Below, piece by piece: positions 11,985 through 58,800 of a DNA stretch of 64,000 nt (positions within the stretch are counted from its first letter, which is position 1; each line of letters opens with the position of its first letter). This DNA is from Buxus sempervirens. Lineage: Eukaryota > Streptophyta > Magnoliopsida > Buxales > Buxaceae. Under the pieces are notes generated by a model, which was given only the letters and a program-made list of their open reading frames with translations, had not been told where the DNA came from and ran no database searches. The translations under genes were made by a program, and so were the position numbers. The stretch spans positions 5,580,001 to 5,644,000 of the forward strand of contig OX387184.1 in NCBI GenBank assembly GCA_947561395.2, given 5' to 3'.

Positions 11985-13520
11985 TTTTGTGTGCCTGGTT
12001 TGGTTGAAGAACTCTTTTTTATGTCGGTAAGCTCAATGCAAAGCGAATAAGGTTTGTTAGTGTGGTTCTTTCAGTCTCAATAAAATAACATTCTGCCTAA
12101 TAAGAATCGGAGGGGTTCCTTGTCTTGACTTCCCTATGAATGATTCTCCTTAGTTCCTTCTTAGAAGATGCTATATGATATTTTTGAGTAATAAATTATA
12201 TAATAATATATGCTGTTTGATAATTATGCAGTAACAGCATTTGAGTTATGAAAGCAATAATTTGTTCCAAGCTGACACCAAAAGCAACAAGATGGTGCAC
12301 GAAACCTATTCACCAATAGATGCATGTACAAGAGTTCTTGATCATATTGAACACGGCATGTGCTCTGTTTATATGGAAAAGGCAGAAGATATATCCCATT
12401 TTTGAACTATATCTTGCCAATAGCAGTGTTCTCATAACACAATTTTAAGAAAGACTAGATTGAAACGATATTATCTTGCACTCGTTTAGTTTTTGCTCAC
12501 CTGAACCAAATTCCAAAAACTGAACTTTTTTCTTTTTCTTTTTGGGTCCTTTTTTTGCGGTGACGAATCTGGGACTAAATTTTTTTCTCTTTTAAAATTA
12601 ATGCACTGAGGCCAGTTTCTACTTCATTTTTTTTCCTTTACCCTTTTTTCAATCTTATTGTGTCCTGTTACATTTATTTTAGTCAACATCATCATCACCA
12701 TAAACATAAGCCAATTCCCACCAAAGTAAGGTTGGCGATATGAATCTTTTCTCTCCATATTGTTCTAATTTAGGTTAATGTTTAAGTCTTGTTTTATTAA
12801 CTTTATGCATGTCTTTTTAGGTCTACCAATCTCTTAGGGCCCTTCAATTTACATCATCTCTCACTTTCTTACAAGTACATCTCTAGGTCTTCGCTTTATA
12901 TGCCAAACCACCTTCACTGTTTTATCCCTAATGCATGCTATACTTAACCACTTTTGAATATCTACACTTTGTATTTTGCCTTTTATAGTTTTATCACACG
13001 TCTATCTTAGCATCCTCTTCTCATATAGAATTTTAGAGGAAATGTTTAGTATAATCAGGGATTCTGGCTCAAGCAATTCACTGGGTAAAAATTAAGTTTA
13101 TTAAGCAATAGCTAAACCAATTTCCCAAGATGCAAAACAGAAAAGCATATTCCCAACAGAAATTATTCTGAAGATCCTCAAATCTGTAACGTCTTAGCTA
13201 CTGACTTGTAGCCTTGCAACTGGGGAGAGAACTGTATTTTATTATTGGTAAGAGTACAAACTTGATTGTCAAAAAAGCAACAAGAGCATACAAACACAAT
13301 GAAAAGGTTTAAATTTAGCTTTATTATATTTTAATCAGTCTTTGGCATCTGAAGATATAATCTATCAAAGGGATTGGTTTACTTCCAAAGGGTATAATTT
13401 TCAGTAACTTCTAATCATAAGGTTTAACTTGTATATGCTTATGCCCCAGGCTGTAATAAGATTGGACAGAGCTACATGTCGTGTAAAGAAAAGGTGCTAA
13501 CAGAAAAATAGCTTAATGAT
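11985..13520. other. Upstream region of the NFP-type gene and 3' flank of the DAR1-type gene
   Basis: AT-rich non-coding sequence. The first few hundred bases are the presumed promoter of the minus-strand NFP-type gene. A LINE 3' fragment lies at 12675-13040. Confidence 0.45.
12675..13040 (-). mobile_element. LINE 3' fragment (RTE/L1-like), antisense
   Basis: Read on the minus strand, this contains a short peptide pattern of the extreme C-terminus of a plant LINE reverse transcriptase (…KVVWHIKRRPRD… and GRPKKT-like residues). It ends in TTTGGTGGGAATTGGC and a GATGATG tail. The same tail occurs in the plus-strand fragment near 16160-16375. The fragment is 5'-truncated and its frames are interrupted. 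Confidence 0.45.
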
Positions 13521-16500
13521 TCAATAGGGGAAGCTCCCAGTCATGCGAATATGGTCAAGTGTAATCCGGAGGCCATATTTGAGCACTGCTCGATTACCGG
13601 CTCTGAATCCGTTTCCATATGCCGGAGAAGTATCTGACTCAATCTGGTGTTTAAAAAACTCCCCAAGCTGCCTTTCAAATTCAGATCGTTTGCCTTTCTT
13701 GGATGAAGTGGAAGTAGAGGATGATGAAGAAGTTGATGCAACATTACTGCCACTCCCTGCGATTACCTCTGAGTCCAGCCACATGTGAGCTAGCACCTGG
13801 CAGATACCTTCTTCAACATCCGGACTAAGAGAACGGTACCCTGACAAACAGCATCAACAAAATCAGCATCTTAGGTGTCAAATTCATACCAAAAAAATGG
13901 AGTACCTTTAAGCCGCAACCAAGCATGCATCAGCTCATGAGCCAGAATTGACCCAGTCAGCAACCTATATGCAGAAAGGTGAGAAACCATGCATCAAAAC
14001 ATTTCAAACAAGTATCATTCAAATAGAACTGATGATGATGTCAATCACATTATCACCAAAAAAAAAAATTTTGGGGGAGAAAGACTTGTAGACAACAAAA
14101 GTCTGCTGGAGTACAATGATCAGAAGCAGTACCTAGGGAGTCCATACAAAATAAGAATAGCTGTAACATCACATTGACGGATAAGCCTATATGGTTCTGT
14201 CATCATGCTAAGGATTCGTCCAGCCCCAAACAATGGCCTCCTCAGAATCTAGTATTTTCAAGGGAGAAAAAGAAATAGTCCTCTATGCAATAAAAAAATT
14301 TTTTATCAAATTTTCACTGTTATTCAATTGTTTATAGATAATGAAATTGAAATTTTCTTACAGTGCTGACAATCTGTTCCTCTGACAGGCAGAGTCCTCG
14401 AGTCTCAGGCAAGTGATGATGACCCTATCCATGAAAAGGATTAGCTTATATATAAAGGCAGAGCACATGGATTGAGATTAATACATAAGTGTTTACATAA
14501 TTATATCCTTACATTCTTTTCCCCCTCTATGGCCTCATTCAGTGCTTGTCTCTCAACCAGAAGTAATGGAATTTGCTGTTCCACTTTCATATTTAAACCC
14601 TCATAAAATTCTTGTATATCTATGTAAAGGGGTTGGCATTCGTGGGTATCCATGATCGAGGAGTCCAAACACTCAAGACAGAGCTTCCGCCCATCATCCA
14701 GGGATAAGTATCCAGTGTCTCTTGGCTGCACATAGGGAAGTGGTCAAAATTTCTTAGCAAATCTTGGGATACCATTGTGCTCCTTTGTCAGCTTGAAGAG
14801 ATGTCTTTCAAAGTTAAAAAGTACTTAATTCCAACTGACCTCCATTCGTTCACAACTACAACACCTAGGAGTACCATCATGCTCATGTGAGGGACAGTAT
14901 TTTTGAGCCCAAAATGGATGCGCCCGATATTCAACAAGACCAGCAGCATTTGTAGGAATCTAAAAGAAAATTCACAACCGTCACAGGCACACAGTCGGTA
15001 CGTATATCAAAGATAATAAATAAAATAGTAAAGCAGATGATAGAAGTGAAATGTGCAGCAGGAAAAAATGTCACAAAACATTATCACAAACACAAAACAT
15101 TCTAAAAGCAAAGGTATCATGGAAAACATTCTGATACTGTAAGCCTAGAACTATAGAAACACCTAAAGGAAGGCAACAAATCTTTTTCTCTGTTGAAAAA
15201 GTGAACCAGTTGACTGAAAACTGGGTATAAAAACTCAGAAAATCAACCAACAAACTATAATGACCAACCTGTCATCTCTAAGACAAGGAGACCACATTGG
15301 TATGGATGGTTGATGGTGAATCCATTATCACCATTTTGATAAGGTATAAGCTTTTGGGAGATGGGAATATAGCCTCCACATTTTGGCAAGTGAGCCATGC
15401 AATTTGTTAGGTTTTTATTTGAATGGCACTTCAGAGCTGGGAGACTAGAGAGGATGGGCAAAAGTCACTGATTTGGAATAACAAAAAACTGTAACTGCTC
15501 CTCAGATTCTGTTTGAACGGATTTACAATTTATATAATCACATTCTCGTTTTACCTTACGTAGTATCAGATTGATTTAGTAATCAATTTCCATTTTCCAA
15601 TATCCTAAGGCATACAAGAACTTGTAGCACTCTTTGATTTTGACACCTGATGCAAACCTCAAGTAATGATTAAACAGGGTCTTGAACTTTTAGCTTTTAA
15701 GCATTCCTGAAAAGGTAATATACACCAGTGGGTCATAATTAGATACTTACAAATTGTTTGCAAACATCACATTTTGGGTGATAAAGCTCCTTGTAGCAAG
15801 ACTTGTGATATGGGTAATCCCCAGACATAGAGAACTGCAGAAGAAACCAATCAGATGAGACCACTTACACCAAAGAAGGATCTGATAAGAATTAGAGCAC
15901 CTTGTTAACCAGTTCCAATCCAAAATAACACTAGATGATTACAACAAGATTTTGCACCTCATGATCAGAAATTGGCAAATTGCAACCATGACAAAGAAAG
16001 CATTCTGGATGCCAAACTGCACCCATGCAACTCAGATATCGTCCATGACCAATCTCACGATTACAACCAGCACAAGTCCTACAAAATTGTAGCATTAGAA
16101 GCGATGGATTAGTAAGGAGGGGAATTAACAAAACAATGAGAAAAGGTCTATACTTTTTCAGCACTTGTAAGAAGGTGTGAGAGGATACATATTGAGGGGC
16201 CTAAGAGATCAAGAGGAAGACCTAAAAAGATATGGAGGGAGTTAATATAACAAGAACTACATAAACATAAATTAACCGGAGATATAATTTTTGATAGAAC
16301 AGGAAGGAGAGACAAGGTTTGTGTCGTTGACCCCACTTTGGTGGGATCTGGCTTATGTTGATGATGATGATGGTGTAGCTAATTTTTATTTTCAAAGAAA
16401 CCAAAGTGACATATCATGGTTTTTGTAGACAGGTTCAACATATGATGCAGATGAATTATTACACAAAAAGGTGCGAAACTTTTTCTTTTGGAGGAAGAGA

Positions 16501-26311: not shown

Positions 26312-29300
26312 TCAATTGTGCAACTCCTCAACATTCACTCCAAAAATGTAGTCCTCCCTCTCAAATTCCTCATGAAGTAAACAAATAGATGGTGGGTTGA
26401 TTCTTTGTTCCTTGCTGAATATTTCAGTGTCTATAGACCTCCTTCCCTGGACAGCAATGAAAAATACAAATGCATTTCAAAACATCCAGATGATTATTTA
26501 CCAATACAGGGAATTGATCAGCATAATGATAATTCGATGAGGTGATACAGTCAAGAGGCTCTTGCTTGGTTTGGAACTGTATTAAACTGATTTTAGATTT
26601 CTTATCCCCTCCCCCAAAATAATGAAGAAACACTCCCTTCTTTAGAAGCCGGAAAACAGTTTCAATTTTCGGCATCAAGGGTGGCAGTTTTGTAAGAAAG
26701 GAAATAGAAACTTATTTTATTTCTTGTTTTGGGTATTGAAATCCTAAAGCCTCAAAGCACATTTTTCCTCTTCCAACTGCTTTTCTTCTTCCATTCAGTT
26801 TTCAATATATTCCCCAATTTATCAGAAGATTAATAGATATTGATTTTTTTTCACAACATAAGTGATCTAAACCTGCAGAATTGAACAATCTAGGTATTTC
26901 TTTCCATTGCAATGGATTTCTTCTTCTCAAGCACAAAAAATTTCTCCAAAATCTCCTAACTATTTTAGTTCAATCTTTATAATAAAAAAACTTGGATATT
27001 CAAACAATTTAGTTTAGGATTTGAGATTTCATCTAATCTCATATGTTCATATTTTTAGTTAGATTCCAAATGGAACCGGAAATTTCACCAACTGCTACTT
27101 AATGGGTTTCTGGCTCTAGTTTGGAAAGCTCAAAACCATTTGGTTTTTAAATTGTTTTTAAAAAAAGCATTACCAAACTTCTTTGGCAAAACTGTAATAG
27201 ACTTTCCATAATATGTGGCAGTCATCATGATAACCACAATATCTAATGCTACCTCATTAAATATCACCTCTAGATACATATAATAGTTCTGACTGCTTAT
27301 CTTACATACCTTCCTCAAGATATAGAAGAAATAATGGAACCCATCACCAAAAGTATTCCACTCAATTGACCAGGTAAACACCTGAGCTTCAAACAAAGGA
27401 CGCCTGAAGTGTGGCTGTCGGAAAACAAATTACGACTAAGAAAAGTAAACAGGGGAAAAAAACAAACTGATACACGTTTTAAAATTGATTACCTGGCCAA
27501 AAGATATTGAGAGGAAGATGCCATCAGGTTTCAAAACCCTATGAACTCCTTCTAGCATTGCCATTGCCTTGGTTATTGTCCCAGGTCGTGGATTCCAGGG
27601 ATCACCACTGTCCACGAACAATACATCCTTCAATTCAAACATTTTACATGCTTGATTCAATCAAAAAAGAAATATTTAAGCAGTATATCAAATGTTAACC
27701 AGATAGATATTTTGAATAGCCAATTGCACTTTCAATAAAAGCAGGAGGAAAGATGCGGTGCCTTATGCATTTACCATGGTTCCTTTCTCAATAACCACAT
27801 CAAAGCACTCATTGCCAAAAGGCAGGTCTAACATGTCAGCCTCCACAACTTTAATATCTGATGATACGAAGACATATGATGAAGACAAAATTAGGGGTAA
27901 ATTAAATTATCTCAGGGCAAGAACAGAGCTTCTGCAAAATCATTATCAGGAATCAACTACTTTTCTTCAATTCATAACTCTAAGAAACATTAGACCAAAA
28001 AACAAGAAAAGAAATATTCATACATTACTCAAGCAATAGAGTTGATCCTCTACATATTTACGATGCAGAGCTACCGCAGATCTCTATTTTTTTTAAATTT
28101 CTCCAATGACAGATGTATATTCAAAACTTGGTTAGAAATTACGACTATGGATTTTGACTCTGGCAGTGAGTTTCATAGAAGTAACAGAAAATAGATCACC
28201 GACCACATTTTTCTTAAAAGATGCTGTAATGTCTATTTCAAAGGCAGAATGCAGGCACAGCAAAATACAATTCAAACAAGTAGCTAGAAGGTATACCGTA
28301 ATGGGTAGCATAAGTCCTACCTACACACCTTTATATCCATTGACAAGCAAACGTCTTTGCATTTTATCCACAGCAACTGGGGACAGATCAATGCAAGTAA
28401 TTTTGCTGATCCCATCTTTGTACAATTCCTCAGACAACTGGGAGTTCCCACAACCAATCTCCAATACCTGTATTCTCATAGTTTTTTTTTTCTTATCAGT
28501 ACCTGTATTCTCATAGTTTGTCTCAATTCCATGAGATAACACCATATAAAGTGTATTAATGGACTTAATAGTAAGATACATTTCATAGAGAAACAATAAA
28601 TGAAAAAAAAAAAAAAACAACCTTCGAATCACAAGGCATACTTTTCTTTTTTACTTTTATCCCTTCCATGAATAGAGAAATACACGAGATTTAACAGGCC
28701 CCTGACCAAAATGACAAAAATAAAAATAATCATGTAAAGAATACTGCCACTTTGGTGAGAACTGGCTTATGATGACCATGTAAAACAAACTAGAAAGCGG
28801 CTTAAATACCCACAACAAAAAGAAAAAAAAAAAAAAAAGCTCTCCATCCACGCAATTCATTTTCAAGCTATATTCAAATCTAGAACAATTGATCACAAGA
28901 TAATTTATCATATATTGGTACAATTACTTAATACCATTTAGAAAAAGTTTATTTGTAAAAAGAGGGCATCAGCATTAATCTATTTGCCTCTTCAGCATGT
29001 AACTGAGAATCATAATAAAAAAGAACCGGGCAGCTTGAATCTGCAATATACATGATTTCCTAATGGTTAAAGAGGAAAGTCTCTTCTCTTGTTGAGTATA
29101 TGAATCGATCATCAAAATTTACAACTTTATGGCGTTTCGATTGAAATAGATCATAATATATGACACTAAACGATTATGAAAAAGACACATACAATATGCC
29201 AGAAAGGGTTGTCTCGAGGATTGAACATCGGAACGCAAGCAAAAGACAGAACCGACTAGAACGATACCTTGAAAAATCTATGGTTTAAAACGGCAATTAC

Positions 29301-29678: not shown

Positions 29679-29849
29679 GATAGTCGGGAGATGGCGGGAT
29701 TCTGGACTGGGAACACAACTAAACTGAAAGGAATTTGTGAAAAAAGGAAAAAACGAACCCTAACGTGGGTCGATCTAGGGCTCAAGTTTAATCCGTTACG
29801 ATTTAAGTAACAGAAAATATAATTAAAAAAATAGAAAAGATATATATGT

Positions 29850-29922
29850 TCCATTGCCGGGATTTGAACCCGGGTCGCCTGGGTGAAAGCCAGGTATCCT
29901 AACCGGACTAGACGACAATGGA
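29850..29922 (-). tRNA. tRNA-Glu (anticodon TTC)
   Basis: On the minus strand the 73-base sequence starts TCCATTG and ends CAATGGA, giving a perfect seven-pair acceptor stem. The anticodon arm is CCTGG-CTTTCAC-CCAGG with anticodon TTC, and the T arm is CCGGG-TTTGAAT-CCCGG. The D arm carries the TAGTCCGGTTAGGA pattern of plant tRNA-Glu. No intron. A T run follows about 13 bases downstream, suitable for Pol III termination. It lies about 170 bp upstream of the methyltransferase start, on the same strand. Confidence 0.93.
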
Positions 29923-45301: not shown

Positions 45302-45712
45302 CTACATGTTGGCTTTTCTTTCCCATCTTTCCTTTGTGTCAAGCCCCCAGTGTAATTTCTGGCGCTTCTTTGATGATGCTAAGGATGCTGGTGTCTTGTC
45401 CTGTAGCAATGAATATGGGTCCTTAGAATGGTTTTCCTTTGAGGTAGAAACATTAGAATCTTCATAGAATATACTGGTATCTCCATCTTTACTAGCTTTG
45501 GAACTAAACTCCTTCGCATGGGTTTCAACACCCCCACATTTATTCACTTTTGAATTCTTTTGCTTCTTTGATCGTGATTTTATCTGCAAACGTCTCCTAT
45601 GCAATTCTTTGAACTTGCTGAGCTGATCTTGTGACACACTTGCAGACTTGAAGTTGGGTCGTAAAGCAGGGGTTGCTGCAATTGCTGCTTCTCTCCTCTT
45701 ATCCTCCTCCAT
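45302..45712 (-). CDS. Uncharacterised small charged plant protein
   Basis: Open frame of 136 residues from MEEDKRREAAIAATPALRP. It is rich in Lys, Ser, Glu and Arg. A helix-forming segment (QDQLSKFKELHRRRLQIK, about 26-43) is followed by a basic stretch (SRSKKQKNSK) and a disordered acidic/serine middle. The last residues (KLHWGLDTKERWERKANM) have the conserved look of a C-terminal motif. I believe similar proteins are widespread in plants but have no assigned function; likely nuclear from the basic segments. The upstream frame extends seven codons to an earlier ATG, but MEEDKRR looks like the natural start. An intron in the 5' leader is possible. Confidence 0.6.
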   Translation of the reverse strand: MEEDKRREAAIAATPALRPNFKSASVSQDQLSKFKELHRRRLQIKSRSKKQKNSKVNKCGGVETHAKEFSSKASKDGDTSIFYEDSNVSTSKENHSKDPYSLLQDKTPASLASSKKRQKLHWGLDTKERWERKANM

Positions 45713-47722
45713 GTTGGATTGCTTTTTATGCAATGATATCAGTGTATAATTCTAGCAAACAAATAAATAATCAGTACAAACAAGTACATTCTTAAAATTT
45801 AAGTTCTAGGTCTCACTCAAACAACAAAAGTCAATCATTGTTATCCATCAACAGGTACAAACTGTTTGTTAGATTTAACTCTAATGAAATTGAAAATAAA
45901 AAAGATTGATATACCTCAATAACAAAAATTTATTGATCTAAACAAACTATTAATTTTGAATAATGGATGAAGACCACCTGCGTTTTCACACTTTGGTTAA
46001 ATAAAGCTATTTGTCACAGATGAAAATGTCTCTTCATTGGACATCTTAAAGCAGAATATTGTAAAGATTTTATTTCAAATTTCTGCAATGACATTTATTT
46101 TAAATTATTTTATTGATAAAAAAGATAGAATAGCAGAGCTTCTAGAGTACTAACCTGGTGGATTGCAGGCAAAAAAGAAGTACCAAGAAAATATATTTAT
46201 ATCATTGAGGAATCATACATGGAAACAGTAATGAGTGCGAGAATAGTCAGTGAATATTTACCTTTCCTTTTGCTTGATTATGGAAGAATTGAAGCCACAA
46301 GTTCAATATGAATTGCCTTGGTATATGTTATTTCCAGAAATGACGAATTATTGGACCAAATTAAAGTTACTAAATGCAAAACTAGAATTGTGATTTAAAA
46401 GCTGGAATCAAAAGGTTTCAGAATAGAATCATCTAAGACTATTCAAATTAAGTACATGAAATGAATTGCGACCATCAAGATGAAAAGTGAATTGCATAGC
46501 ATCAGACGTTAGACATGCTATCATGCAAGGAGTATAAAGATGCCACAAATTGATAGGATTAGCCTATGTGAGTAGCCCCACCAAGATATGAAACAACAGA
46601 ATGTCAAGTGTGATGATTCAGGTCTCAAAAACAAAGACTTTCAGAGGCCCCTATGAGAAGGTTCAAGATGATGCAAGTAACAAGTAAATATTGGATTCAG
46701 GATACCACAAATGACCTCGATGGAGTCAACCATAAATGATTTAAAATCACAAATTCTAAGAGAAGAAAAAGTTTTTACCAATTAAGATACAAATTTTATA
46801 ACATCTACCTATTTGAATACTTACAGTCATCCCAAATTCGATTATAATTGTACAAAAAGAAAATACACTTACCCAACGGATATGGAAGAGAAAGGGGAGA
46901 TCAAACACAACATATACATAGCATTCACGTAATCAATAATAGTAGTTTTATAAGTATTCTCAACAATAATAATAAAGGCAATTTATGCCATGCATTCCGA
47001 CAACTATTTAATCATGAAAAATCCAAACATATAAACCCCGCAAATTATCACTTTTTCATTGGATACCCTCAGTCATCCCCTGTCAACGTAGAACAAAATC
47101 ATCAGCGCCAATAAGACTCAAGGAATCTCTTACCAAGTTGAAGCAAATTCACGGATGAATGCATTCTTTCCCGATGCACATGACATCATATAGAAAATCA
47201 GCAATATTCTTGATGCATCAGGAGAAAAAAAAATTGCTAAAAATGCAAGAAGATCCTCCGCTTCCTTAGTATGGTTTTTCAAAGATAGTCCTTAGTGAAG
47301 GCACCATGATTCATTTTTCTTGCTTTGATTCCGTTTGATGATTAGAGGATTATCATTTGCAAATGATCCTAGCATTACATCCCTGAATGGTCACTCAATC
47401 CAACATGCTTAAACAAAACAAAATAAGCTGGCACTTTAAAAAAATGGAAGATAAAAAAAAGGTGCTAAGAAAAACAAATACAAAAAGAAAACAGTGTCTG
47501 AATTGGCAAATGAAGACATTAGATTCTTAATTGCAAAGACATACTAAATTGGAAGTCGGTATTACCAGCAAATACATATACAACTTTTCATAGACTGGAC
47601 TGACAACAGGATATTCTGCAAGTTCCAACAAGTTGGATGGCATCATTAAAGAACTGATTGTACATTGGACAATGCACTTGGCTGAACTCATAAGTTGGAC
47701 AAGCAAGTCTCAAACTTGCTTG
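45713..47722. other. Upstream region of the 45.3 kb gene
   Basis: AT-rich sequence without a convincing exon. It is bounded on the far side by the solo LTR. Promoter and any 5' untranslated exon of the minus-strand gene should lie here. Confidence 0.35.
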
Positions 47723-47727
47723 ATCAT

Positions 47728-49802
47728 TGTCAGAACGCCAATTTTGGGGGTTTAATTTGCAAAACAGAAAAAGGAACTTGTTGAGATAAAAGCTGGAAAA
47801 CAGGGGAAGAGGGAAAATTTAAAAATTAATTTTTAACTCTGACCTTCTTAAAATAACAAGAGAGGATTTAAATTCTTTAAATTTACAAAAGTCTGCCCCA
47901 ATTATTCCACGAACGAAAACTTGCTGTTTTCATTCGTGGGTTGCCATTTTGCAACCCAAAATCAGTGGGAATCATCTAGAAATAATTCCCACGTTTTAGA
48001 AAAGAAGATTGGAAGAAAAAGAGAAGGGTTTTCAAATCAGAAAGGAAATTTTTTCAATTTAGAAACTCGCGATCAACCGTTTGGACAGTCGATCAAACCA
48101 GAAAATTCCTAGGGGATTCTCGATTCTTCCTCTCTTAATAAGACTTTCTGAAAGAATAGAAAGTTCCCATTCCTCTCTTGATCAAATATGGCAACTCGTC
48201 CCTTTAAAAAGGGACGATTAGCTCCTGTCGAGTGGATGAAAAAAAGAAAAAAAGAAAAGGGCTCAGCTTTCTCTCTCGATCGCTCGCTCACTTTCTCTCT
48301 CTCGCAACTCCCCCCTGCGTCAACCCCCTTTCACCCAGCTCTCTTACTATCACCTTCTGTTGAGGAGGAGACTCTTTATCGAGAGGAAAAAGAAAACTCT
48401 CATCTGTGGGAGAGATTCAGCAACGAAACCCCTCTCTCGCCTGCTCTCTCGCTCTCAATCTCTCTCGCTCACTGTCGCGGCCCTAACCGCAAACATCTGC
48501 AGCACTGTGTAAGGATCTTGTCGTTGCATCCTTCTATCGCAGCCCACCTTGTCGCATTTTTAGCTTCCTTCTGCTATTATTCTAGCCAGACGAGCTCATA
48601 GGTAAGTGCCGTAAATCCCTTATGGTATTCCTCTGGTTAATCATAACATGTTTGCTAAATTCCTCGGCTGAAATGATTCTAGGGTTGGAGAGAGCTAGTT
48701 ATTCAGTTTTTGTGCTGTTAGCCGTGTGTTCATCAGTGTGCTGTAATTGTAATACTTTCTGAAATTTTTTTTAATATACTTCAAATTGGTGAATAAATTC
48801 TAATCTTTTCTACAAAATGGAAGTGATCGATTATTTTGTTCTTTAGTTATAATATTCGTGTTTATTTACTCCAGGGATATCGTCACAATTATAGTAGTGT
48901 TTAGTTCTTTAATAAACAAAACAAAAAAAAAAACAAATAAGAAAAAAAGAGTAAAAGGAAAAATCAGAATTTTGTATTATAGGAAATTTAAGTTTAATAT
49001 TTTGTTAGGTATTTAAAATTTAGGAATTTTGCATATATATAAATTTTAGAATTTTAGAAATATTTACCTTGTATGAAACTTAACAAAATTAGAAATTTCC
49101 CTTTTAGGTTTATAGAAACATTTAGAAAATTCCCTTGTTTTAGAAAATTAGAAACTTTTCTTTTAAAAAATTTAGAAATAATTACCTTGTATGAAACTTA
49201 TCAAAATTAGAAATTTCTTTTTTTAGATTTATAGAAACATTTAGAAACTTTCCTCATTTAGAATATTAGAGCCTTTCCTTTTTAGTAAATTTAAAAACTT
49301 TCCTTGTTAATATTTAAGAATTCGTAAAATTTTAGAAATAATTTTTTTGTATAAAATCTAAGAACTTTAGAAATATTTCCTTTTTAGGATTTGTATATTA
49401 ATAAATTTAGAAACCCTTAGAAGTTTAGAAACCTTCCTCTTTTAGAACCCTTTTTTAGAAATTTGTAAAGATCTTTTTTAGAAATATTTCACTTGTATCA
49501 AATTTAGCACACTTAGGAACTTTCCTTAATATTTGTAAATATTTAAAATTGTAAATAAATAATTTCTTTTTAGGGTGAAATCTAGATAAGGTAACTGGTT
49601 CATTGAACCAGGGGTTGTTGGGTGCCTAACACCTTCCTAACCACTTAATTGAACCCCCTAATCCAGAAATCTGGTTGAATCAAATTTGAAACTCCCATGA
49701 GATTAATTAATTTTTCTTGGTGCCCATCCACACCCGAAATTGAACCACGGATGGTGGCGACTCTATTGACCCGAACCGACCCCCATGGGCCGTGTTCTCA
49801 CA
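47728..49802. mobile_element. Solo LTR of a Ty3/Gypsy element (Tat/Ogre-like)
   Basis: A 2075-base segment beginning TGTCAGAACGCC and ending GTTCTCACA is flanked by the perfect five-base duplication ATCAT (47723-47727 and 49803-49807). Near the right end it has the stretches GGGTGCCTAACACCTTCC and GGTGGCGACTC, which I associate with LTRs of the Tat/Ogre branch. No second LTR or internal region is present, so it is a solo LTR left by recombination. A 137-codon frame at 48188-48601 lies in the CT-rich leader part and is not a gene. Age cannot be estimated from one LTR; the intact target duplication argues against great age. Confidence 0.75.
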
Positions 49803-49929: not shown

Positions 49930-52260
49930 TACTGAGAAGCTGGAACAAGTAGTTTGTGCAAGCTAGCAACCATTATTATAGTTGTCTTGTAAGAATGGTC
50001 TAGGTGTCACATCCATGTGGCAAGGGCACATAAAACAAAGAACAAAAATAAAGGAAACTTATTATAAAATCCAAAAATAAAGGAACAATATGTGATGCAG
50101 GAGATATTTAGAAACTACCAAATAAAGCTAGCTGTCTAGAGATTTTGTTTCAATAGTTTCCTATTCCAACAATTTCCTATTTCAATATTAGGAAAGACTT
50201 TCTATTTTCTATTTCAGTTTAGGAAAGTAGCTGTAGTTTCTTATTTTGATTGTTTCCTATTTCCGTTTTAGGGAAGTTTCTATATTTTGTTTTTGTATTA
50301 AGAGATTTGGAATATTTCTATTTCAACTTTAAAAAGTTTCTATTATTCCTTTATAGAAAGTTTTGTAACCTCTATAAAAAACGGAATAGTTTCATAATGG
50401 ATCATTGGAGAATTATACAGCAAATCAATTGTTTAAGGAGAGATTCCTTAGTCTAAGCTCAAGGTGAGAAGCCAAGAGCTTGGGGGGTGAGATGCCTTCC
50501 CTTGGTTCTTTTTCCTCTTAAGTTTTCTGTTCTAAAATTCCTGGGTCTCCTAGCTTGAGAATTCCATCCTATATTCTTAAGCCACATCAGTTGGTATCAG
50601 AGGCGAAGTATCAGAAAACTCAATCATGTTTTTATTGAGGTGAGACTCCTCTAATTCTCCAGTAATGGTTAGACTCCATTACCTGATAGTGGTGAGACTC
50701 TGCTATCAATCCTTGTTAAAGGTTGGTGAGACTCCAATTCTTTCAAGGATCCATTTCTTGGCTATGGTGAGGCTCCATTTCCAAGCCCTAGTAAAGTTTG
50801 GTGAGGCTCCATTTCCAAGGGTATGTTTTCCAACATTATTTTTGAAGCTACTTGATGGTGTGCAAATCAACCCAACCGTTAATATGACGAACCTTACATG
50901 TTACTATGGAGATGATGGAAATTCAACAAGCACAACATATCCATGAGTTCCAGGTGTTCAGCAACAAAAGGAAGAAGTTGAAGATATTTTGGATGATCAA
51001 ATTGTTGCCACTCGTAAAGGTGGTTATCAGAAGTTTCTAGTAAAGTTGAAAGGGTGTCCGGTGTTTGATTGTTCCTAGATTACTACAATGGAATTGCAAA
51101 ATCAAGCTCCTGATCTTTATGAGTGGTACATTTCCTTATACTCATCGAAGTCGAGTCTTGTGAAGAGAGGAAATTGATGCAGGAGATATTTAGAAACTAC
51201 CAAAAAAAGCTACAAGCTGTCTAGAGATTTTGTTTCTAAAAAGTTTCTTGTTTCAATAGTTTCCTATTCCAATAGTTTTCTATTTCAATATTAGGAAAGA
51301 CTTTCTATTTCCTATTTTAGTTTAGGAAGGTAGCTGTAGTTTCTTATTTTGATTGTTTCTTATTTCAGTTTTAGGAAAGTTTCTCTATTTTGTTTTAGTA
51401 TTAAGGAGTTGGAATATTTCTATTTCAACTTTAGAAAGTTTCTATTATTCCTTTATAGGAAGTTTTGTAACCTCTATAATAAAGGGAAATAGTTTTATAA
51501 TGGATCATTGGAGAATTATACAGTAAATCAATTGTTTAAGGAGAGATTCCTTAGTCTAAGCTCGATGTGAGAAGCCAAGAGCTTAGGAGGTGAGATGCCT
51601 TTCCTTGGTTCTTTTTCCTCTTAAGTTTTCTGTTCTAAAATTCCTGAATCTCCTAGCTTGAGAATTCCATCCTAAATTCTTAAGCTACATCAATATGAAC
51701 ATAGAAAGTCCATTAAAAATGTCTAATCCACACGTCATAAATCCATCATTGTCCAGTACATTGGCAACCCATTAGTATATGCTTGTAGTTTCCATATACA
51801 TAAGAAATAAATTGAAGTATGAGCCTAAATCTTCTGAAGATACATCAAAATTTTAAGCTAGAAGAAAAAGGCAGAAACTGTAAAGCCATGTAAAAATAGT
51901 AGACAAGTGTAAGAAACTAAGAAGCTGAAACAAATAATTTTATGCGGCAAGGGCACACAAAATAAAGAACAAAAATAAATGAAACTTATTATAAACTCCA
52001 AAAATAATTGAACACAAAGACAGAAAACCCACTAAAAATGTCTAATCCGCACAAATCAAAAATCCATCATTGTACAGTATACTAGCAGACCACTTACAAT
52101 ATGCTTATAATTTCTATATAAACAACAACAACAAAAAAATTTTGGAGTATGAACCAAAATCCTCTGAAGATTCATGAAAATTTTAAGCTAGAAGAAAAAG
52201 GCACAAACTGTACATCCATGTAATATAGTAGATAACTGTAAGAAATTATCATTTTGGAAA
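49930..52260. repeat. Tandem duplication (~350 bp unit), first unit split by an LTR element
   Basis: Unit 1 starts near 49930 (GAGAAGCTGGAACAAG), is interrupted at 50092 and resumes at 51698. Unit 2 starts near 51915 (AAGAAGCTGAAACAAA) and runs to about 52260. Shared landmarks are GGCAAGGGCACA, GAACAAAAATAAA, AAAATGTCTAATCC and TTTTAAGCTAGAAGAAAAAG. The end of unit 2 overlaps the left arm of the large inverted repeat. Non-coding. Confidence 0.7.
50093..51692 (+). mobile_element. Short broken LTR retrotransposon with chromovirus-like remnant
   Basis: The 5' LTR (50093-50589) and 3' LTR (51175-51692) both start TGATGCAGGAGATATTTAG and end in CATCA. The whole is flanked by the target duplication ATATG (50088-50092 and 51693-51697). 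One base after the 5' LTR comes TTGGTATCAGAGG, a primer-binding site matching initiator tRNA-Met. A purine-rich AAGAGAGGAAAT precedes the 3' LTR. The internal part is only about 585 bases and retains what looks like a remnant of the end of a Gypsy polyprotein (chromodomain-like). It is non-autonomous and broken. The LTRs differ by scattered substitutions and small indels, so it is moderately old. Confidence 0.85.
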
Positions 52261-53361
52261 GTTAAAAAAAAAAAAAGAAAGAGGCTAAATCATATATGAT
52301 GGAAGCATAAAGAAATTATTATTTTAGAAAGCCAAGAACCTATTAGTTCACCCCCTTGGTCCATTTGACATTTTCCTCATCTCAGAAGCCAAACATGTTG
52401 CAAATGCATTCTTTAATGGGAGATAATCATATAGTGAAGAGAATCAAGTGGCAAACTATTATGGAATTCTCATTTCTAGAAAGTATTAATGAGCAATGAT
52501 TTGGTGGGAACTGGCTTCTGATGATGATTTAATTGGTCGAACACGACACTTGGTAACATCAAATTCTATATTTGAATTATCAATGAAATGTCTTTACCAC
52601 CCCAAAAAAGAAAAAAGGAAAAAAAATAAAAACGAAGAAGAACAAGAAAAGCTAATCAATAAAATCCAGTTTGTCATAGTCTAATCAATCAAATACACTA
52701 AGAGTGATAAGTTGGATCAGAAAAAGCATGGGTTAAGCCAACACTGAGACATCGAGACGACAAACACAAAGGATGGGAACATAAAACACTACAACAGAAA
52801 CGAACATCACACCCATGGAAGCACCTAAATAAAGTGATAATAAGCTTATTAACTAACAAACTCAGCATCAGTCCTAAGGAACCAATAATAAAATATATAT
52901 AACCTCGAGATCTATCAAAACAATCAAGTACGACATGCCATTCAAATCAACAATACTCAGACACCATATCGAAAACCATCTATATTTGAGATCGACGAAA
53001 TCAATGAAATATATCATGCCGTTCCGATCAATTTTATTCAAGCACCAAATACAGGAATCAATAAATAAGAAATTGAAGAAATTTGAGCCAGCCATACCGT
53101 GGTGAAGATCAACCGTATTCCAAGCCCCACTGTACAACAATTGGCTAATCCCAATAATCCTCGTCACTTAAACCCTAACCCAAGCTTCAAAAACCGCAGA
53201 AAAACATCATTCATGGAGGGTTAGAGATTAATCTACGTTACAGGCTAATACCAAACTTGGCTTTGAGTACTAGTCGGTTGCGCTTTTTTCTGTAGTTTAT
53301 TTATACTTTATACTCTCCAGGTCCAAGGCATTCGTCTTCCGAAGAATCCGAACCCGAATGT
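52204..53361. repeat. Large inverted repeat, left arm
   Basis: About 1.16 kb that is the near-perfect reverse complement of 53468-54637. On the minus strand it carries a TATA-like box (complement of 53307-53312), a leader-like stretch and an open frame at 53167-52874 (97 codons, MTRIIGISQLLY). That frame closely matches the frame in the right arm. A LINE-type 3' tail (TTTGGTGGGAACTGGC, near 52500) lies near its outer end. Confidence 0.85.
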
Positions 53362-53467
53362 GTAAAGGCTAGAACCAGGACGTCCGGGCGGATAACATCC
53401 ATTTAGTTTATTTTCCAAAACTAGCCTTCACTTTTTTTTATTTTCTCTTTATGCCCAGTACTTTAAT
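53362..53467. promoter_or_regulatory. Spacer of the inverted repeat, possible divergent promoter
   Basis: About 106 bases of single-copy sequence between the two arms. TATA-like boxes face outwards on both sides, at 53307-53312 (minus) and 53517-53522 (plus). The arms next to the spacer contain CGTCTTCCGAAGAATC and its inverted copy. If transcribed, two near-identical transcripts would leave in opposite directions. Promoter function is inferred from position only. Confidence 0.3.
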
Positions 53468-54637
53468 ACATTCGGATTCAGATTCTTCGGAAGACGAATG
53501 CCCTGGACCTAGAGAGTATAAAATATAAATAAACTTTAGAAAAAAAGCGCAACCGACTAGTACTCAAAGCCAAGTTTGGTATTAGCCTGTAACGTAGATT
53601 AATCTCTAACCCTCCATGAGTGATGTTTGTCTGCGGTTTTTGAAGCTCAAGTTAGGGTTTAAGTGACGAGGATGATTGGGATTAGCCAATTGTTGTACAA
53701 TGGGGCTTGGAATACGGTTGATCTTCACCACGGTATGGTTGGCTCAAATTTCTTCAATTTCTTATTTATTGATTCCTATATTTGGTGCTTGAATATAATT
53801 GATCGGAACGGCATGATATATTTCATTGATTTCGTCAATCTCAAATATAGATGGTTTTCAATACGGTGTCTGAGTATTGTTGATTTGAATGGCATGTCAT
53901 ACCTAATTGCTTTAATAGATCTCGAGGTTATATGTTTTTATTATTGGTTCCTTAGGACTGATGCTGAGTTTGTTGGTTAATGAGCTTATTATCACTTTAT
54001 TTAGGTGCTTCCATGGGTGTGATGTTCGTTTCTATTGTAATGTTTTATGTTCCCATCCTTTGTGTTTGTCGTCTCGATGTCTCAGTGTTGGCTTCACCCA
54101 TGCTTTTTCTGATCCAACTTATCACTTTTAGTGTATTTGATTGATTAGACTATGACGAACTGGATTTTATTGATTAGCTTTTCTTGTTCTTCTTCGTTTT
54201 TTTTTTTTTTTTTCCTTTTTTCTTTTTTGGGGTCGTAAAGACATTTCATTGATAATTCAAATATAGAATTTGATGTTACCAGGGGTCGTGTTTGACCAAT
54301 TAAATCATCATCATCATCAGAAAACAGTTCCCACCAAATCATTGCTCATTAACACTTTCTAGAAATGAGAATTCCAGAACAGTTGGCCACCTAATTCTCT
54401 TCACTATATGATTATCTCCCATTAAAGAATGCATTTGCAACATCTTTGGCTTCTGAGATGAGAAAAAGGTCAAATGGACTAAGGGAGTGAACTAATAGGT
54501 TCTTAGCTTTCTAAAACAATAATTTCTTTATGCTTCCATCATATATGATTTTGCCTCTTTCTTTTCTTTTTTTTTTTTACTTTCCAAAATGATAATTTCT
54601 TACAGTTATTTACTATATTACATGGCTGTACAGTTTG
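53468..54637. repeat. Large inverted repeat, right arm
   Basis: Reverse complement of the left arm with scattered differences. The plus strand has TATAAA at 53517-53522, then a leader-like region with an AACCCT motif. An open frame at 53663-53980 follows (105 codons, MTRMIGISQLLYNGAW…). I do not recognise the peptide. The frame differs from its left-arm partner at roughly one residue in ten over the shared part and diverges at the end, so coding selection is uncertain. Confidence 0.85.
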
Positions 54638-55882
54638 GAACTTGCATCGTCTACAGCTTAAGGTTAACAGCGTTCACCACAGCCTGTAGGAGGCGATGAC
54701 GCGTGGTCAACTTGTCTCGTGACAAGCACGAGACAACTTAACTGGTATCTCCATCCCATTAGTTCACAGTAAACCAAAAATACAAAAATAAAATAATGAA
54801 ATGAAAAAAAAGGAAATAGGCGGGCTACAAAAGCGGATCACACTCAAACAGTTTTAGGTTGTCTGTGATCCTGGATTCTGGGGAATTAAATTGCTCTTTA
54901 AGGTAAAGAATAGAGATTAAGAAACAAAGTGAAAAACATTGAAACGTGGTAATCTAAAAGGAAGCACTTTATTGAAGCTCTTAAAATCCAATCTTTTTAA
55001 AAAGAGTAAAACATATATGCTCAGCACATAATTTGTAAACAAAATTTAATGAAATAGCAAGGAATCTAACAATGTAGACATAGAGGGTTGGTAGATATCA
55101 CGTCACAACCATGGATTCAAACAGCAAACTCAAAAAAAAAAGAAAGAAAGTGTTTTTAGGCATATTTTGAATCAAACTAGAAAGAAAAAAACTCTTTTCT
55201 CTCTATTTTTTTCATCTCCCTCCCCTAAAAACCCTAAAGGGAAAAAGACCTTAAGCATAAAAAAATTTCCCCTTCTTTCTAAAACCCTAAAAGTAAGAAA
55301 CCTACCACACCAAAATTTTCCTATCAAATTACGATTCACAGTTCTTTGTTTTCCACATATGAAAGATGAAAAACAGGTAAATCCACGTGAACGTACCAGA
55401 GAGATCAATTCAAAGAGAGAATACAAGGAGAATCTTCTTGTCAAAGCCGCTTCAGCTGGTCCTTCACAAGGCTGACTCGTCGTCGAACATTCGAGCGGAA
55501 TACACTCGCAAGCTTGATGGCAAGATTACGTTCAGCCGTTTAAAAGGTTGCAAGGCGAAGATGCGCACTGAAGGGTTTGAGCTTGCTTTTGGAGCAAACT
55601 TGCAGGAAATGAGGTTGAAGACGATAGACTTTTTTTTTGATAATCATGTTGAAGACGATAGACAAAAACCCATCAAAGGAGAAATTTTATATTTTATACA
55701 TTGTTTTCCAATTTTACCCCCAGCAGCAACCGTAACCAAAAAAAAAAGCAGCCGTTAACGGGACGGACGGTCTTTTGTCCCGTTAAGTTGTCTCTAGGGC
55801 TTTATCTCTGTTTTTTTTTGGTAATGCTCTGGGGCTTTATCTCATAGATCAATTTCCAGAAAACGTGAGAGAGAATAGGAAA
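54638..55882. other. Upstream region of the plastid RPS9 gene
   Basis: Contains overlapping open frames on both strands (for example 55167-55475 and 55387-55758), none with a recognisable product. AAACCCTAAA motifs near 55227-55290 resemble telo-box elements common in promoters of ribosomal-protein genes. A small hairpin around GTTAACGGGAC / GTCCCGTTAAG lies at 55754-55790. Confidence 0.35.
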
Positions 55883-58800
55883 ATGGCGATTTCGTTGTCC
55901 TCTCTTGCATTTTCCTTATCGTCTCTCTCATTTTCTTCCCAAATTTCTTCAAAACCGCAAAACATGTCGTTTGGCCGGACCAAGTCCTTCCCGAATTCCC
56001 TTATTCTAAAAACCCCACCTCTCGTTGTGGTTGCTTCTGCCGCCGGGGTCGCTTCTCCGGTCGACTTAGAGACCACAAACCTTAAGAAATACGTGAAGTC
56101 CAGGCTTCCAGGTGGGTTCGCTGCTCAAACAGTAATCGGAACGGGTAGACGGAAATGCGCAATAGCTCGCGTTGTTCTCCAGGAAGGAACTGGGAAAGTT
56201 ATCATCAATTATCGCGAGGCCAAGGTGCGAATTTTCTTTCTTTTCTGCCTTTTGTTTCCCAGATTTTGATCCTTTAAAGCACAACTGTAATCTTAGATTT
56301 GGAGTTGTAATTCAAAGGTGTTCAGATCAGGAGTGAGGAGTTGATGACACTAGTTTAATACAGGAATTGAGAACAAATGTATCTTGTCAGTGTGCATTAG
56401 TGTGGTATTCTTGTAATACTCCTGTGCATCCTTGTGATAAGTATGACGAAGAGTACATGGAATGCAGGAGTGTCGGGGTATTTAATTAAATTAGGGCTAG
56501 AGTATTTTGCAAAAGACAAAACTCTAGTTTGGCTTAAGCAGCAGGTACTGTTAGTGGTTTCTGCCGGTAGAAATAGGAAGAGCAAGCAAATGGGGATGAT
56601 GGGCTACCCAGAGCAAAAGGAGGGACCTGAAAGAATATGACTTTTAGGGCTTTAATGTGGCCGTTTGGATTATGCACTCCCTTTTGTAGCCCTAAACTTG
56701 GGGGAGCTTTGTCATGATCCCAATAGTTACAGATGAAGAGTAGTGTGACCTTGGAAAAGCATGTAGCAAGGTGGCTGAATCTTCAGAAACATGCTGCAGT
56801 TAGTCATTAGAATAGGAAAACTAGAGGAATTAAATAAATCTGCAAAGATTTGGAAACTTTCAGGAAACGAGGGAGGATTATCTGACCTTCAAACTTCTGT
56901 CAAATTCCTACATACAATAGCAGGAATTATCAACTGGTTGCTCCACAAACACTTTGTCTAGTAGAAGAATGTGAGATGACAATCACTAAAACCTTTAAAA
57001 TATTTTAAACATTCTAGATAAATAGCTAATTTAAAATAATAGATCATGAGAACATAGTTTTCTGAATCCTATGATTATAAACTAATATCTGATTGATGTA
57101 TGCATGTGAATTAGGGATGGAAACAGTTCGGTTTTGAACCAAACTAGCATGTAATACAAACCAAACTAAACCAAAAATTAATACAAACCCAAAACCAGTC
57201 CTAATATGTTTGGTTCAGGATAAACCAACTGTAGTTGTTGTTCTGACTATATATATCTGGTTCATTTTGGTTTATCAGATTTAACTGAACCATTTTCATC
57301 CGTAGCCCCAAGGCTTAAGATTCTGTTTGCTTCTCAGAGTCTTAGGGGTCGTTTGGAAGGGTTTCTCGATTTTGGATTCAGCTAGAATTCAAATCTAGAG
57401 CCCAGTTAAGCTGTTTGGCATGGATTTTGAAAGTTAGATTCTTATATCAGTTTTTAAAATCAGACCAAAAACCAAAATCCATATTTTACTAGCTTCTATG
57501 GATTTTGATGCTTAATAGCATAGAACTCAAAATCCGGATTGTTACGAATATTGGAACAAGCCTGACTGTCGTGACCTGTTTCTCATTGCTTATTGGGTCT
57601 TCTTCAACCTTTTCCTCTGTAGCAAAAAAACCAGGTACTCTCTCTCTCTCACCCTCTTCTCTCGTGACATTTCCTTTTCCTCTTCCCCTATTCGCTGCTC
57701 CCTCTTGAAACCCTCAACAATAGTCCAGCAGCCTTTGACATTTCCTTTCCTCTCTCTCGTCAATCCCTCTTGAAACCCTCAACAACAATTAGCATCCATG
57801 ATTTGTACACTGTTGGGAGGGAACGAGGTATCGTTCATGAAATGGAGCAAGTGCGATGAACATGGAGCTATACGAGATCTTCTAGGATTGATGGTGCAGC
57901 AACAGGTGTCCAAATCATCTCTGTATATAACAGGTGTACAAATCAACATGGCTTTTGGTATTGATGGTGCAGCAACAGGTGGTGCTACAACAGGAAGGGA
58001 TTGGAACACCTGACAAGAGGGCTTGGGTTTTTGTCCGGCCAAAAGCCAAGGGGGTTTGGATTGTCCGGCCAACAGCAACATTTGGCTCCTTCTTGTGCTT
58101 GGGTTTTTGTCAGGCCAAAAGCCAAGGGGCCTTGGATTGTTAAGAATGTGATGAGGTCTCCCACTTGATTTTTTTTTCTTGTTGTGAACGTGGGAATGTT
58201 GGTGCTGTTTCTGGTGATCGGCCATTTGAAAGAAAATGGTTTAAAGCTATGAATTTGTCCAAAAAATCAGGTACACCAAATGCTTGTTAAAATGTTTGAA
58301 TCAATTTACATTTCCAAATTCATTCTTTTTGTTCAGTTTTTTTGTCTTATCTACTTCTTTTCGTGCGATTGAAATTTCAATCTACTCCAATTGAAATTTC
58401 AAACAAATGCAATTATGGATTTTGGTTGCCAAAATCAAATTTTAAAATCAGTGTATCCAAACAAGATTCGCGATTTTAAAAATTAGCATTGAGAATATGG
58501 TTTTTTTAAATCCAAATTATAATCCATAATCTAGAATCCAGAAGCTCTACCAAATGACCCCTTAGTTTTGAGCTTCTGGAGTTTGAGATTCTAAATTTGC
58601 AAGTTGGAACTCGAGGTCTATGTTTCATAAGTCTCGAAGATACTGCAATTGTCCTTTTAGTTTATCTCTGAACATACCATTTGATTGTTCAATTGGGATT
58701 TTTGTGCTGTGCAGGAGTATCTTCAAGGAAATCCACTTTGGCTTCAATATGTCAAGGTCCCATTGGTAACTTTAGGATATGAAAGTAGTTATGATGTTTT

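Follow-up and report, generated by a model that had tools for sequence, protein, structure and literature searches.

Within the window, a 64,000-nucleotide stretch of Buxus sempervirens DNA, two inverted arms lie head to head around a short spacer. The left arm spans 52205–53367 (1,163 nt; assigned to the minus strand, on which its TATA-like box and reading frame read outward), the spacer 53368–53460 (93 nt, no strand) and the right arm 53461–54636 (1,176 nt, plus strand). Alignment of the left arm with the reverse complement of the right showed 1,104 identical bases at 1,162 aligned positions (95.0%; K2P 0.052). The 58 substitutions comprise 41 transitions and 17 transversions, a ratio of 2.4:1, and the 15 gap columns fall mostly within simple runs. 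A preliminary description had reported a near-perfect repeat ending at 52204 and 54637, with arms of about 1.16 kb and a spacer of about 106 bases. The repeat and its arm length are real, but 95.0% identity is not near-perfection; the ends are about right, each lying roughly one base too far out (a Mutator-like element starts at 54637, give or take 1–2 bases), and the spacer measures 93 bases by the arm alignment.

On the left, an old tandem duplication extends with its second unit (51942–52248, plus strand) into the outer 44 bases of the left arm. Its units are 79.8% identical over 228 aligned positions and 90.4% over 73, and its matches in the own-genome search are confined to its own locus. 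The arms, at 95.0%, are more alike than these surrounding old repeats, as had been proposed, and the comparison supports a relatively recent inverted duplication. A small LTR retrotransposon (50093–51692, plus strand; LTRs at 50093–50589 and 51175–51692, 5-bp target-site duplication ATATG, LTR K2P 0.059) lies 0.5 kb left of the arms and is oriented towards them; eight AATAAA words occur on the plus strand from the LTR to the spacer. On the right, the first exon of a ribosomal protein S9 gene (55883–56224, plus strand; end placed by eye) was recognized through the Pfam family Ribosomal_S9, which was found in 2 of 37 frames (best E 6.3e-32; three other families at E 0.03–0.05) chosen among the 187 frames that, from 40 kb onward, run for 45 aa or more without a stop. 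This exon matches itself alone in the genome. The possibility that the repeat sits in an intron of a plus-strand gene with its start at 48.2 kb was also considered and dropped, because 48001–48700 proved to be a dispersed repeat: the 40 candidates scored, of 99, gave 53 matching pieces, the query included.

The outer ends of the two arms have different flanks, and the right arm abuts the Mutator-like element (54637–55794, plus strand); the element's left terminal inverted repeat (TIR) is present and its right one is missing. Inverted ends were found by blastn in all nine copies fetched, measuring about 100 bp or more except at one end of L026 (70 bp). Direct repeats of 9–11 bp, corresponding to target-site duplications, flank seven of nine other copies; since the right end is missing from the copy in the window, this trait is taken from the other copies. 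By analogy with them, GTACAGTTT at 54628–54636 (plus strand) is the presumed 9-bp target site, with its left-arm counterpart at 52205–52213; a second copy was not found to the right of the element. The element tip at 54637, together with the duplications at the other copies, therefore makes the right-arm end look like an insertion point rather than a border of the duplication. The family, with TIRs of about 105 bp and 9–11-bp target-site duplications, resembles Mutator-like elements as characterized previously (PMC3310237), but here the element, which lacks its right TIR, adjoins the repeat and cuts its right arm short, and is not the repeat itself. An earlier leaning towards the left arm as the original copy, based on its continuous flank, was dropped, since the right flank is simply cut by this element.

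Each arm contains a reading frame of about 100 codons, as first described: 97 codons on the left (52877–53167, minus strand) and 105 on the right (53663–53977, plus strand). Both frames exist, but as genes they did not hold up and are probably chance. The longest stop-free frame reached 97 codons in 176 and 105 codons in 105 of 1,000 dinucleotide shuffles, the shuffle means being 81 and 82 codons, which the arm frames exceed. Between the arms, the frame has a Ka/Ks of 0.38, which is below 1 but not significant (Fisher p = 0.14). Thus, neither a length above chance nor significant purifying selection was found for a protein-coding pair. In Pfam, 28 frames taken from 52150–53420 (left arm and borders; minimum length 25 aa) yielded nothing below E 0.033, and four families at E 0.033–0.09 were taken as noise. 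The left-arm 97-codon frame likewise had no match below E 0.033 in the frame sets containing it; one weak DUF5409 match in those sets may be this frame. The 105-codon frame, the one scanned among the right arm's short frames, had no match at E 0.05.

A motif scan placed a TATA-like box, TATAAATA, at the inner end of each arm (53298–53305, minus strand, pointing left; 53524–53531, plus strand, pointing right), which bears out the suggestion of outward-facing boxes on either side of the spacer. The motif occurs 9 times in the window against 5.93 expected, a count reached or exceeded in 13 of 100 shuffles and not significant by itself. A scan of the repeat centre with bacterial promoter and terminator consensus sequences, which are unsuited to plants, returned nothing. 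The LINE tail proposed near each outer end is also real; it measures about 35 bases and lies roughly 300 bases inside the arm ends (TTTGGTGGGAACTG...(GAT)n at 52500–52534, plus strand, on the left; 54303–54338, minus strand, on the right). The arms share this tail with six other loci in the genome, and among 39 frames from these six loci taken together two matched zf-RVT and one matched RVT_1 in Pfam.

The own-genome search covered 676 Mb and skipped simple repeats and very common words, so that uniqueness is not absolute. Four queries represented parts of the arms: 52204–53360, the translated right-arm frame, a 33-base pattern in which at most 3 mismatches were allowed, and 54300–54640; the right arm was thus queried piecewise. 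The first recovered itself, the right arm and five pieces of 35–60 bases; the short extra matches of the arms are the LINE tail and A-rich stretches. A spacer query (53340–53480) had itself as its sole match, and no other long copy was found for the left arm, spacer, left flank, right-arm frame or outer right arm. The parental locus sought elsewhere did not appear in these searches of parts, in which the long matches are the two arms only, and a distant parental locus was discarded on the same four queries. With the Rfam gathering scores as cutoffs, the window gave one tRNA and no described miRNA family. The duplicated DNA is seemingly an otherwise single-copy stretch, either non-coding or like the 5′ end of a gene.

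Folded as a single strand, the repeat has a minimum free energy (MFE) of −1841.5 (plus) or −1914.1 (minus) kcal/mol, compared with −526.5 to −549.2 for three mononucleotide shuffles of the plus strand. Because these values are far below those of the shuffles, a chance origin is excluded and the inverted repeat is genuine. More than 1,100 register pairs form in the predicted fold, consistent with the very long hairpin previously envisaged, as a potential of the molecule. The long, near-identical inverted arms and short loop of a hairpin-RNA locus are present (95.0% over 1,162 positions, 93-nt spacer and the above MFE). Transitions that leave a G:U pair number 29 solely in the minus-strand hairpin and 12 solely in the plus-strand hairpin (binomial p = 0.0115, one of several statistics examined), an imbalance expected under selection for a minus-strand hairpin; the folds contain 30 and 13 G:U register pairs. 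Differences of the C-to-T type affect 16 of 102 CG/CHG sites and 25 of 324 CHH sites (p = 0.02), an excess that hints at some methylation. CpG observed/expected is 0.70 and 0.65 in the arms; both values exceed the mean of the window (0.55) and greatly exceed that of the neighbouring 5′ LTR (0.16), and this argues against long-standing dense methylation.

Transcripts from the two outward boxes would each represent one arm in the same sense and therefore could not pair with each other. Thus, the hairpin and divergent-promoter ideas do not go together: a hairpin requires transcription through the centre, with initiation either past the centre or from outside the arms. The LTR element, with its putative promoter, could potentially provide such transcription.

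We consider it probable that the locus is a mostly neutral, local head-to-head inverted duplication that was later cut by a Mutator-like insertion and a deletion. A local duplication, for instance by template switching over a short spacer during repair or replication, would have set two copies around the 93-base spacer, and the original repeat would have been longer than the present arms. The Mutator-like element may then have entered the right arm, and a later deletion may have taken its far end and the remainder of that arm, up to the upstream region of RPS9. The arms have probably drifted neutrally since. The inner boxes, if used, would produce two separate, non-complementary sense RNAs; were the centre transcribed, the only target found for the hairpin's small RNAs would be the locus itself. 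Against this reading, we counted the 29:12 wobble bias, the CG/CHG bias, the Ka/Ks below 1 (though not significantly so), the frames above shuffle means and the imperfect uniqueness search.

Several of these observations would also suit a working hairpin-RNA (inverted-repeat siRNA) locus, in which a transcript initiated beyond the arms, for instance in the 3′ LTR (51175–51692), or within one arm and then crossing the spacer, would fold back and reach Dicer-like enzymes, and the siRNAs would methylate the locus in cis. The register pairs and fold energies, the LTR element facing the arms and both biases are in line with this, as is the VIM4–VIM2 precedent of Arabidopsis Cvi, for which small RNAs are described (PMC13213937). 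However, no trans target was found in the own genome, the AATAAA words could end a read-through transcript, the arms show no CpG depletion against the window level, and the 5% mismatch differs from the 100% identity of exon 1 and intron 1 in that precedent, all of which makes such a locus unlikely. We give a slim chance to a young hairpin-RNA locus between duplication and MIRNA-like refinement, in which pairing is preserved in a minus-strand RNA that spans the centre (29 wobble against 12 pair-breaking changes); with the arms' own promoters facing outward, the hairpin and two non-complementary sense RNAs would compete from one centre.

Two near-identical divergent units, a young gene or lncRNA pair with a shared bidirectional promoter between the boxes, would account for TATAAATA being kept in both arms, 218 bases apart and outward, and for a GT splice-donor-like site (by eye) kept in both after the first part of the frame. 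We find this decidedly doubtful: the window shows no enrichment of the motif, whose occurrence in the two arms counts as a single event, the frame is of chance length, the 28 left-arm and border frames are without a Pfam match below E 0.033, and no downstream exon was recognized. Long-read artefacts are known to take the form of inverted copies around a short spacer, and a fold-back read or misplaced haplotype would fit this form. Its probability is very small, given the different flanks and the right arm's junction with the Mutator-like element; moreover, the differences between the arms are mostly substitutions, biased towards transitions and with few gaps, and an old duplication is therefore likelier than read or assembly error. 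The long inverted arms and short middle could likewise suggest that the whole repeat is a transposon with long terminal inverted repeats or a fold-back element, but the own-genome searches found no other long copy where several would be expected, target-site duplications do not frame the outer ends, the right end is another element's tip and the left end falls within a tandem repeat restricted to this locus, leaving this reading a negligible probability.

In the inverted-duplication model of MIRNA origin, a founder gene stands at the start and becomes the target. Here, no founder was found outside the repeat itself, the two arms being the only long matches in the own genome. The MIRNA idea would need a target, and none is evident in the genome beyond the locus at the sensitivity of these searches, whose queries were longer than single 21-nt targets. 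What the repeat shares with the model (PMC3237417) is the raw material, an inverted duplication. The closest precedent seen is the VIM4–VIM2 palindrome of Arabidopsis thaliana Cvi, which is head to head around a 50-bp non-palindromic centre, with small RNAs and 5′-extended transcripts (PMC13213937). The present repeat is likewise head to head with a short non-palindromic centre (93 bases), and possible outward promoters stand where gene starts face outward in Arabidopsis. By contrast, VIM4–VIM2 comprises coding genes that are 99.86% identical, with homologous targets elsewhere and measured small RNAs, whereas the Buxus repeat, known from sequence alone, has no recognized gene, 95.0% identity and no other homologue found. 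At the soybean I locus (PMC6418295), a subtilisin promoter reads through into a CHS inverted repeat, and a neighbouring promoter could similarly read into the repeat here; in soybean, however, the chimeric transcript was amplified experimentally and CHS genes are targets, whereas here the LTR promoter is putative and a target was not found.

Overall, the repeat has the look of an ordinary local duplication and not of a functioning small-RNA gene. When the promoters of a head-to-head repeat face outward, this counts against a self-pairing transcript and not in its favour. As it stands, the locus is a clear case of a local inverted duplication later eroded by transposon insertion and deletion. 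If small RNAs are present, it would be a head-to-head hairpin locus without a found homologous target, which would separate cis effects from trans silencing.

The two arms of the inverted repeat were placed by global alignment at 52205–53367 (left) and 53461–54636 (right), separated by a spacer of 93 bases. The repeat claimed in the preliminary description is real, the arms being identical at 1104/1162 aligned bases (95.0%), with a K2P of 0.052. The differences comprise 41 transitions, 17 transversions and 15 gap columns, and differing columns are scattered over the arms at 3 to 12 per ~100. Because the arms differ by substitutions with an excess of transitions, more than by indels, comparison of their sequences argues against a fold-back sequencing artefact and in favour of a genuine duplication.

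Copy number was assessed against the species' own assembly (676.5 Mb in 247 contigs, with the window on contig 4 at 5,580,001–5,644,000) by searches that leave out simple repeats and words of very high frequency, so that some repeats could escape them. Besides itself and the right arm, the left arm (query 52204–53360) matched five short pieces, 35 to 60 bases long; for the outer right arm (54300–54640), the matches beyond itself were the left arm and five pieces of 35–38 bases. The spacer region matched only itself, and the left flank had no match apart from itself, the right arm and its own tandem partner. The parental locus envisaged in the preliminary description did not emerge: no other long copy of the arms, no parental gene elsewhere and no evident trans target was found in this genome at the sensitivity of these searches. 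We conclude that the inverted repeat is a local duplication, moderately old, that set two inverted copies of seemingly single-copy DNA head to head.

Other repeats lie within and beside the arms. As first described, each arm carries a LINE tail, ~300 bases inward of its outer end, with TTTGGTGGGAACTG exact at 52500–52513 (+) and 54325–54338 (−). Three further words in the window (16337–16350, 28751–28764 and 12712–12725) each have one mismatch in the 14-base core; chance alone would give 0.02 matches. Six genomic loci share TTTGGTGGGAACTG and a GAT-repeat tail and are also alike further in, on the inner side; 39 frames from these loci gave two zf-RVT matches (best E 6.5e-7), one RVT_1 match (3e-10) and one match to an unrelated family (E 0.0046). 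Since the LINE tail is present in both arms, it most likely predates their duplication. The left flank contains an old tandem repeat, confined to this locus in the genome, which takes in the outer 44 bases of the left arm; identity between its units is 79.8% (228 aligned bases) and 90.4% (73 aligned bases). A small LTR retrotransposon (50093–51692; LTRs 50093–50589 and 51175–51692, interior 585 bases, TSD ATATG) occupies the first tandem unit and faces the arms; past its 5′ LTR lies GTTGGTATCAGAGGC, presumably a primer-site-like motif. The 5′ LTR belongs to a dispersed family, with at least 41 genome matches including its own two LTRs (best 40 of 219 candidates scored). The LTR pair differs by 19 transitions and 9 transversions over 496 bases, and its K2P of 0.059 places the element near the arms (0.052) in age as counted in substitutions. 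Further left, 48001–48700 is a dispersed repeat, of which contig 22 carries a 98% identical copy, and a tRNA-Glu (ttc) gene lies at 29849–29922 (−).

From 54637 onward the sequence belongs to another dispersed family. In 9/9 fetched genomic copies, ~105 bases recur inverted at both element ends (one end of copy L026 matched over 70 bases only), with tips resembling GGACTTGCATCGTCTACAGC in most copies and GGAACTTGCATCGTCTACAGC in the window. Seven of the nine copies are flanked by exact direct repeats, 9 to 11 bases long, which the other two (L022 and L026) lack; with 200 placements drawn at random for each locus, repeats of ≥9 bases turned up 0 to 4 times. Mutator-like elements are described as typically having TIRs of 100–500 bp and 9–11 bp target-site duplications (PMC3310237). 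The long inverted ends and the direct repeats fit that description; the right arm therefore stops where a Mutator-like element begins, give or take a base or two. The interior of this element is traceable to 55794, and its right TIR gave no match beyond that point. Once the duplication had formed, the element would have inserted into its right arm, and a later deletion would have removed its far end together with the remainder of the arm. On this account the presumed target GTACAGTTT should have lost its second copy, and none was found to the right of the element. Within the element, 54899–55794 is ~77–86% identical to five other copies over 496–965 aligned bases. A captured gene fragment is one possible origin of this interval; the set that held three scanned frames lying wholly or mostly within it had Pfam matches to S9 and noise alone. 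Next to the truncated element (54637–55794), with 88 bases between its end and the start codon (ATG), is a gene for ribosomal protein S9 that looks plastid-type by eye; the first exon of this gene (55883–56224) matched only itself in the genome. Judged by position, the element may supply part of the upstream region of this gene.

The longest frame reaches the 97 codons of the left-arm frame in 176/1000 dinucleotide shuffles and the 105 codons of the right-arm frame in 105/1000. Compared over 90 codons, past which the arms differ by a one-base indel, the frames differ nonsynonymously 8 times and synonymously 5 times (Ka/Ks 0.38; p 0.14 by Fisher's test). At a Pfam cut-off of E 0.05 the right-arm frame went unmatched, and the protein it encodes matched only the two arms in the genome; for 28 frames of the left arm and its borders, no Pfam match fell below E 0.033. 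A 149-codon frame with MEEDKRREAAIAATPALRPNFKSASVSQDQLSKF at 45305–45751 (−) resembles by eye a plant gene first exon, and the Pfam set including it matched S9 and noise alone. The outward TATA-like boxes of the preliminary description hold in that TATAAATA occurs in both arms (53298–53305 (−) and 53524–53531 (+)), but not as an enriched signal, with 9 occurrences in the window against 5.93 expected. By eye, a telomere-motif-like TTAGGGTTT and a GT donor-like site come after it in both arms, an arrangement reminiscent of how a plant gene starts, without proving one. Genome-wide, a search for 33 bases of the putative first exon, allowing ≤3 mismatches, matched the two arms only.

Folding of the region bore out the potential for a long hairpin, with 1113 (+) or 1121 (−) register pairs; the MFE is −1841.5 kcal/mol for the plus strand and −1914.1 kcal/mol for the minus strand, whereas three mononucleotide shuffles gave −526.5 to −549.2 kcal/mol. 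However, the TATA-like boxes point outward, and the transcripts predicted from them would not pair because each contains one arm, in the same sense. A hairpin would need a start beyond the centre, possibly in the LTR at 51175–51692; in soybean, a subtilisin promoter is described as reading into an inverted CHS cluster (PMC6418295). Alternatively, 5′-extended transcripts could supply it, by analogy with the Arabidopsis thaliana Cvi VIM4–VIM2 palindrome, a head-to-head gene pair reported to have a 50-bp non-palindromic centre, small RNAs across the first exons, a 100% identical first exon and intron, and a homologous gene silenced in trans (PMC13213937). The Buxus arms, by contrast, are 95.0% identical, and a homologue was not found.

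Inverted-repeat DNA in plants is reported to draw methylation, which repeat-disrupting substitutions prevent in transgenes (PMC9263138). The CpG observed/expected ratio of the arms (0.70 and 0.65) exceeds that of the window (0.55) and of the 5′ LTR (0.16), a pattern that argues against the arms having been densely methylated for long. Pointing the other way, C-to-T type differences between the arms are denser at CG/CHG positions (16/102) than at CHH positions (25/324; p 0.02); the LTR pair, with few such sites, has no CG/CHG bias (2/20 versus 17/146). Among transitions that keep G:U pairing, 29 do so only in the minus-strand hairpin and 12 only in the plus-strand hairpin (p 0.0115). Both biases are leads, as they come from single weak tests among several and are unpolarised. 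The inverted duplication is most likely neutral.
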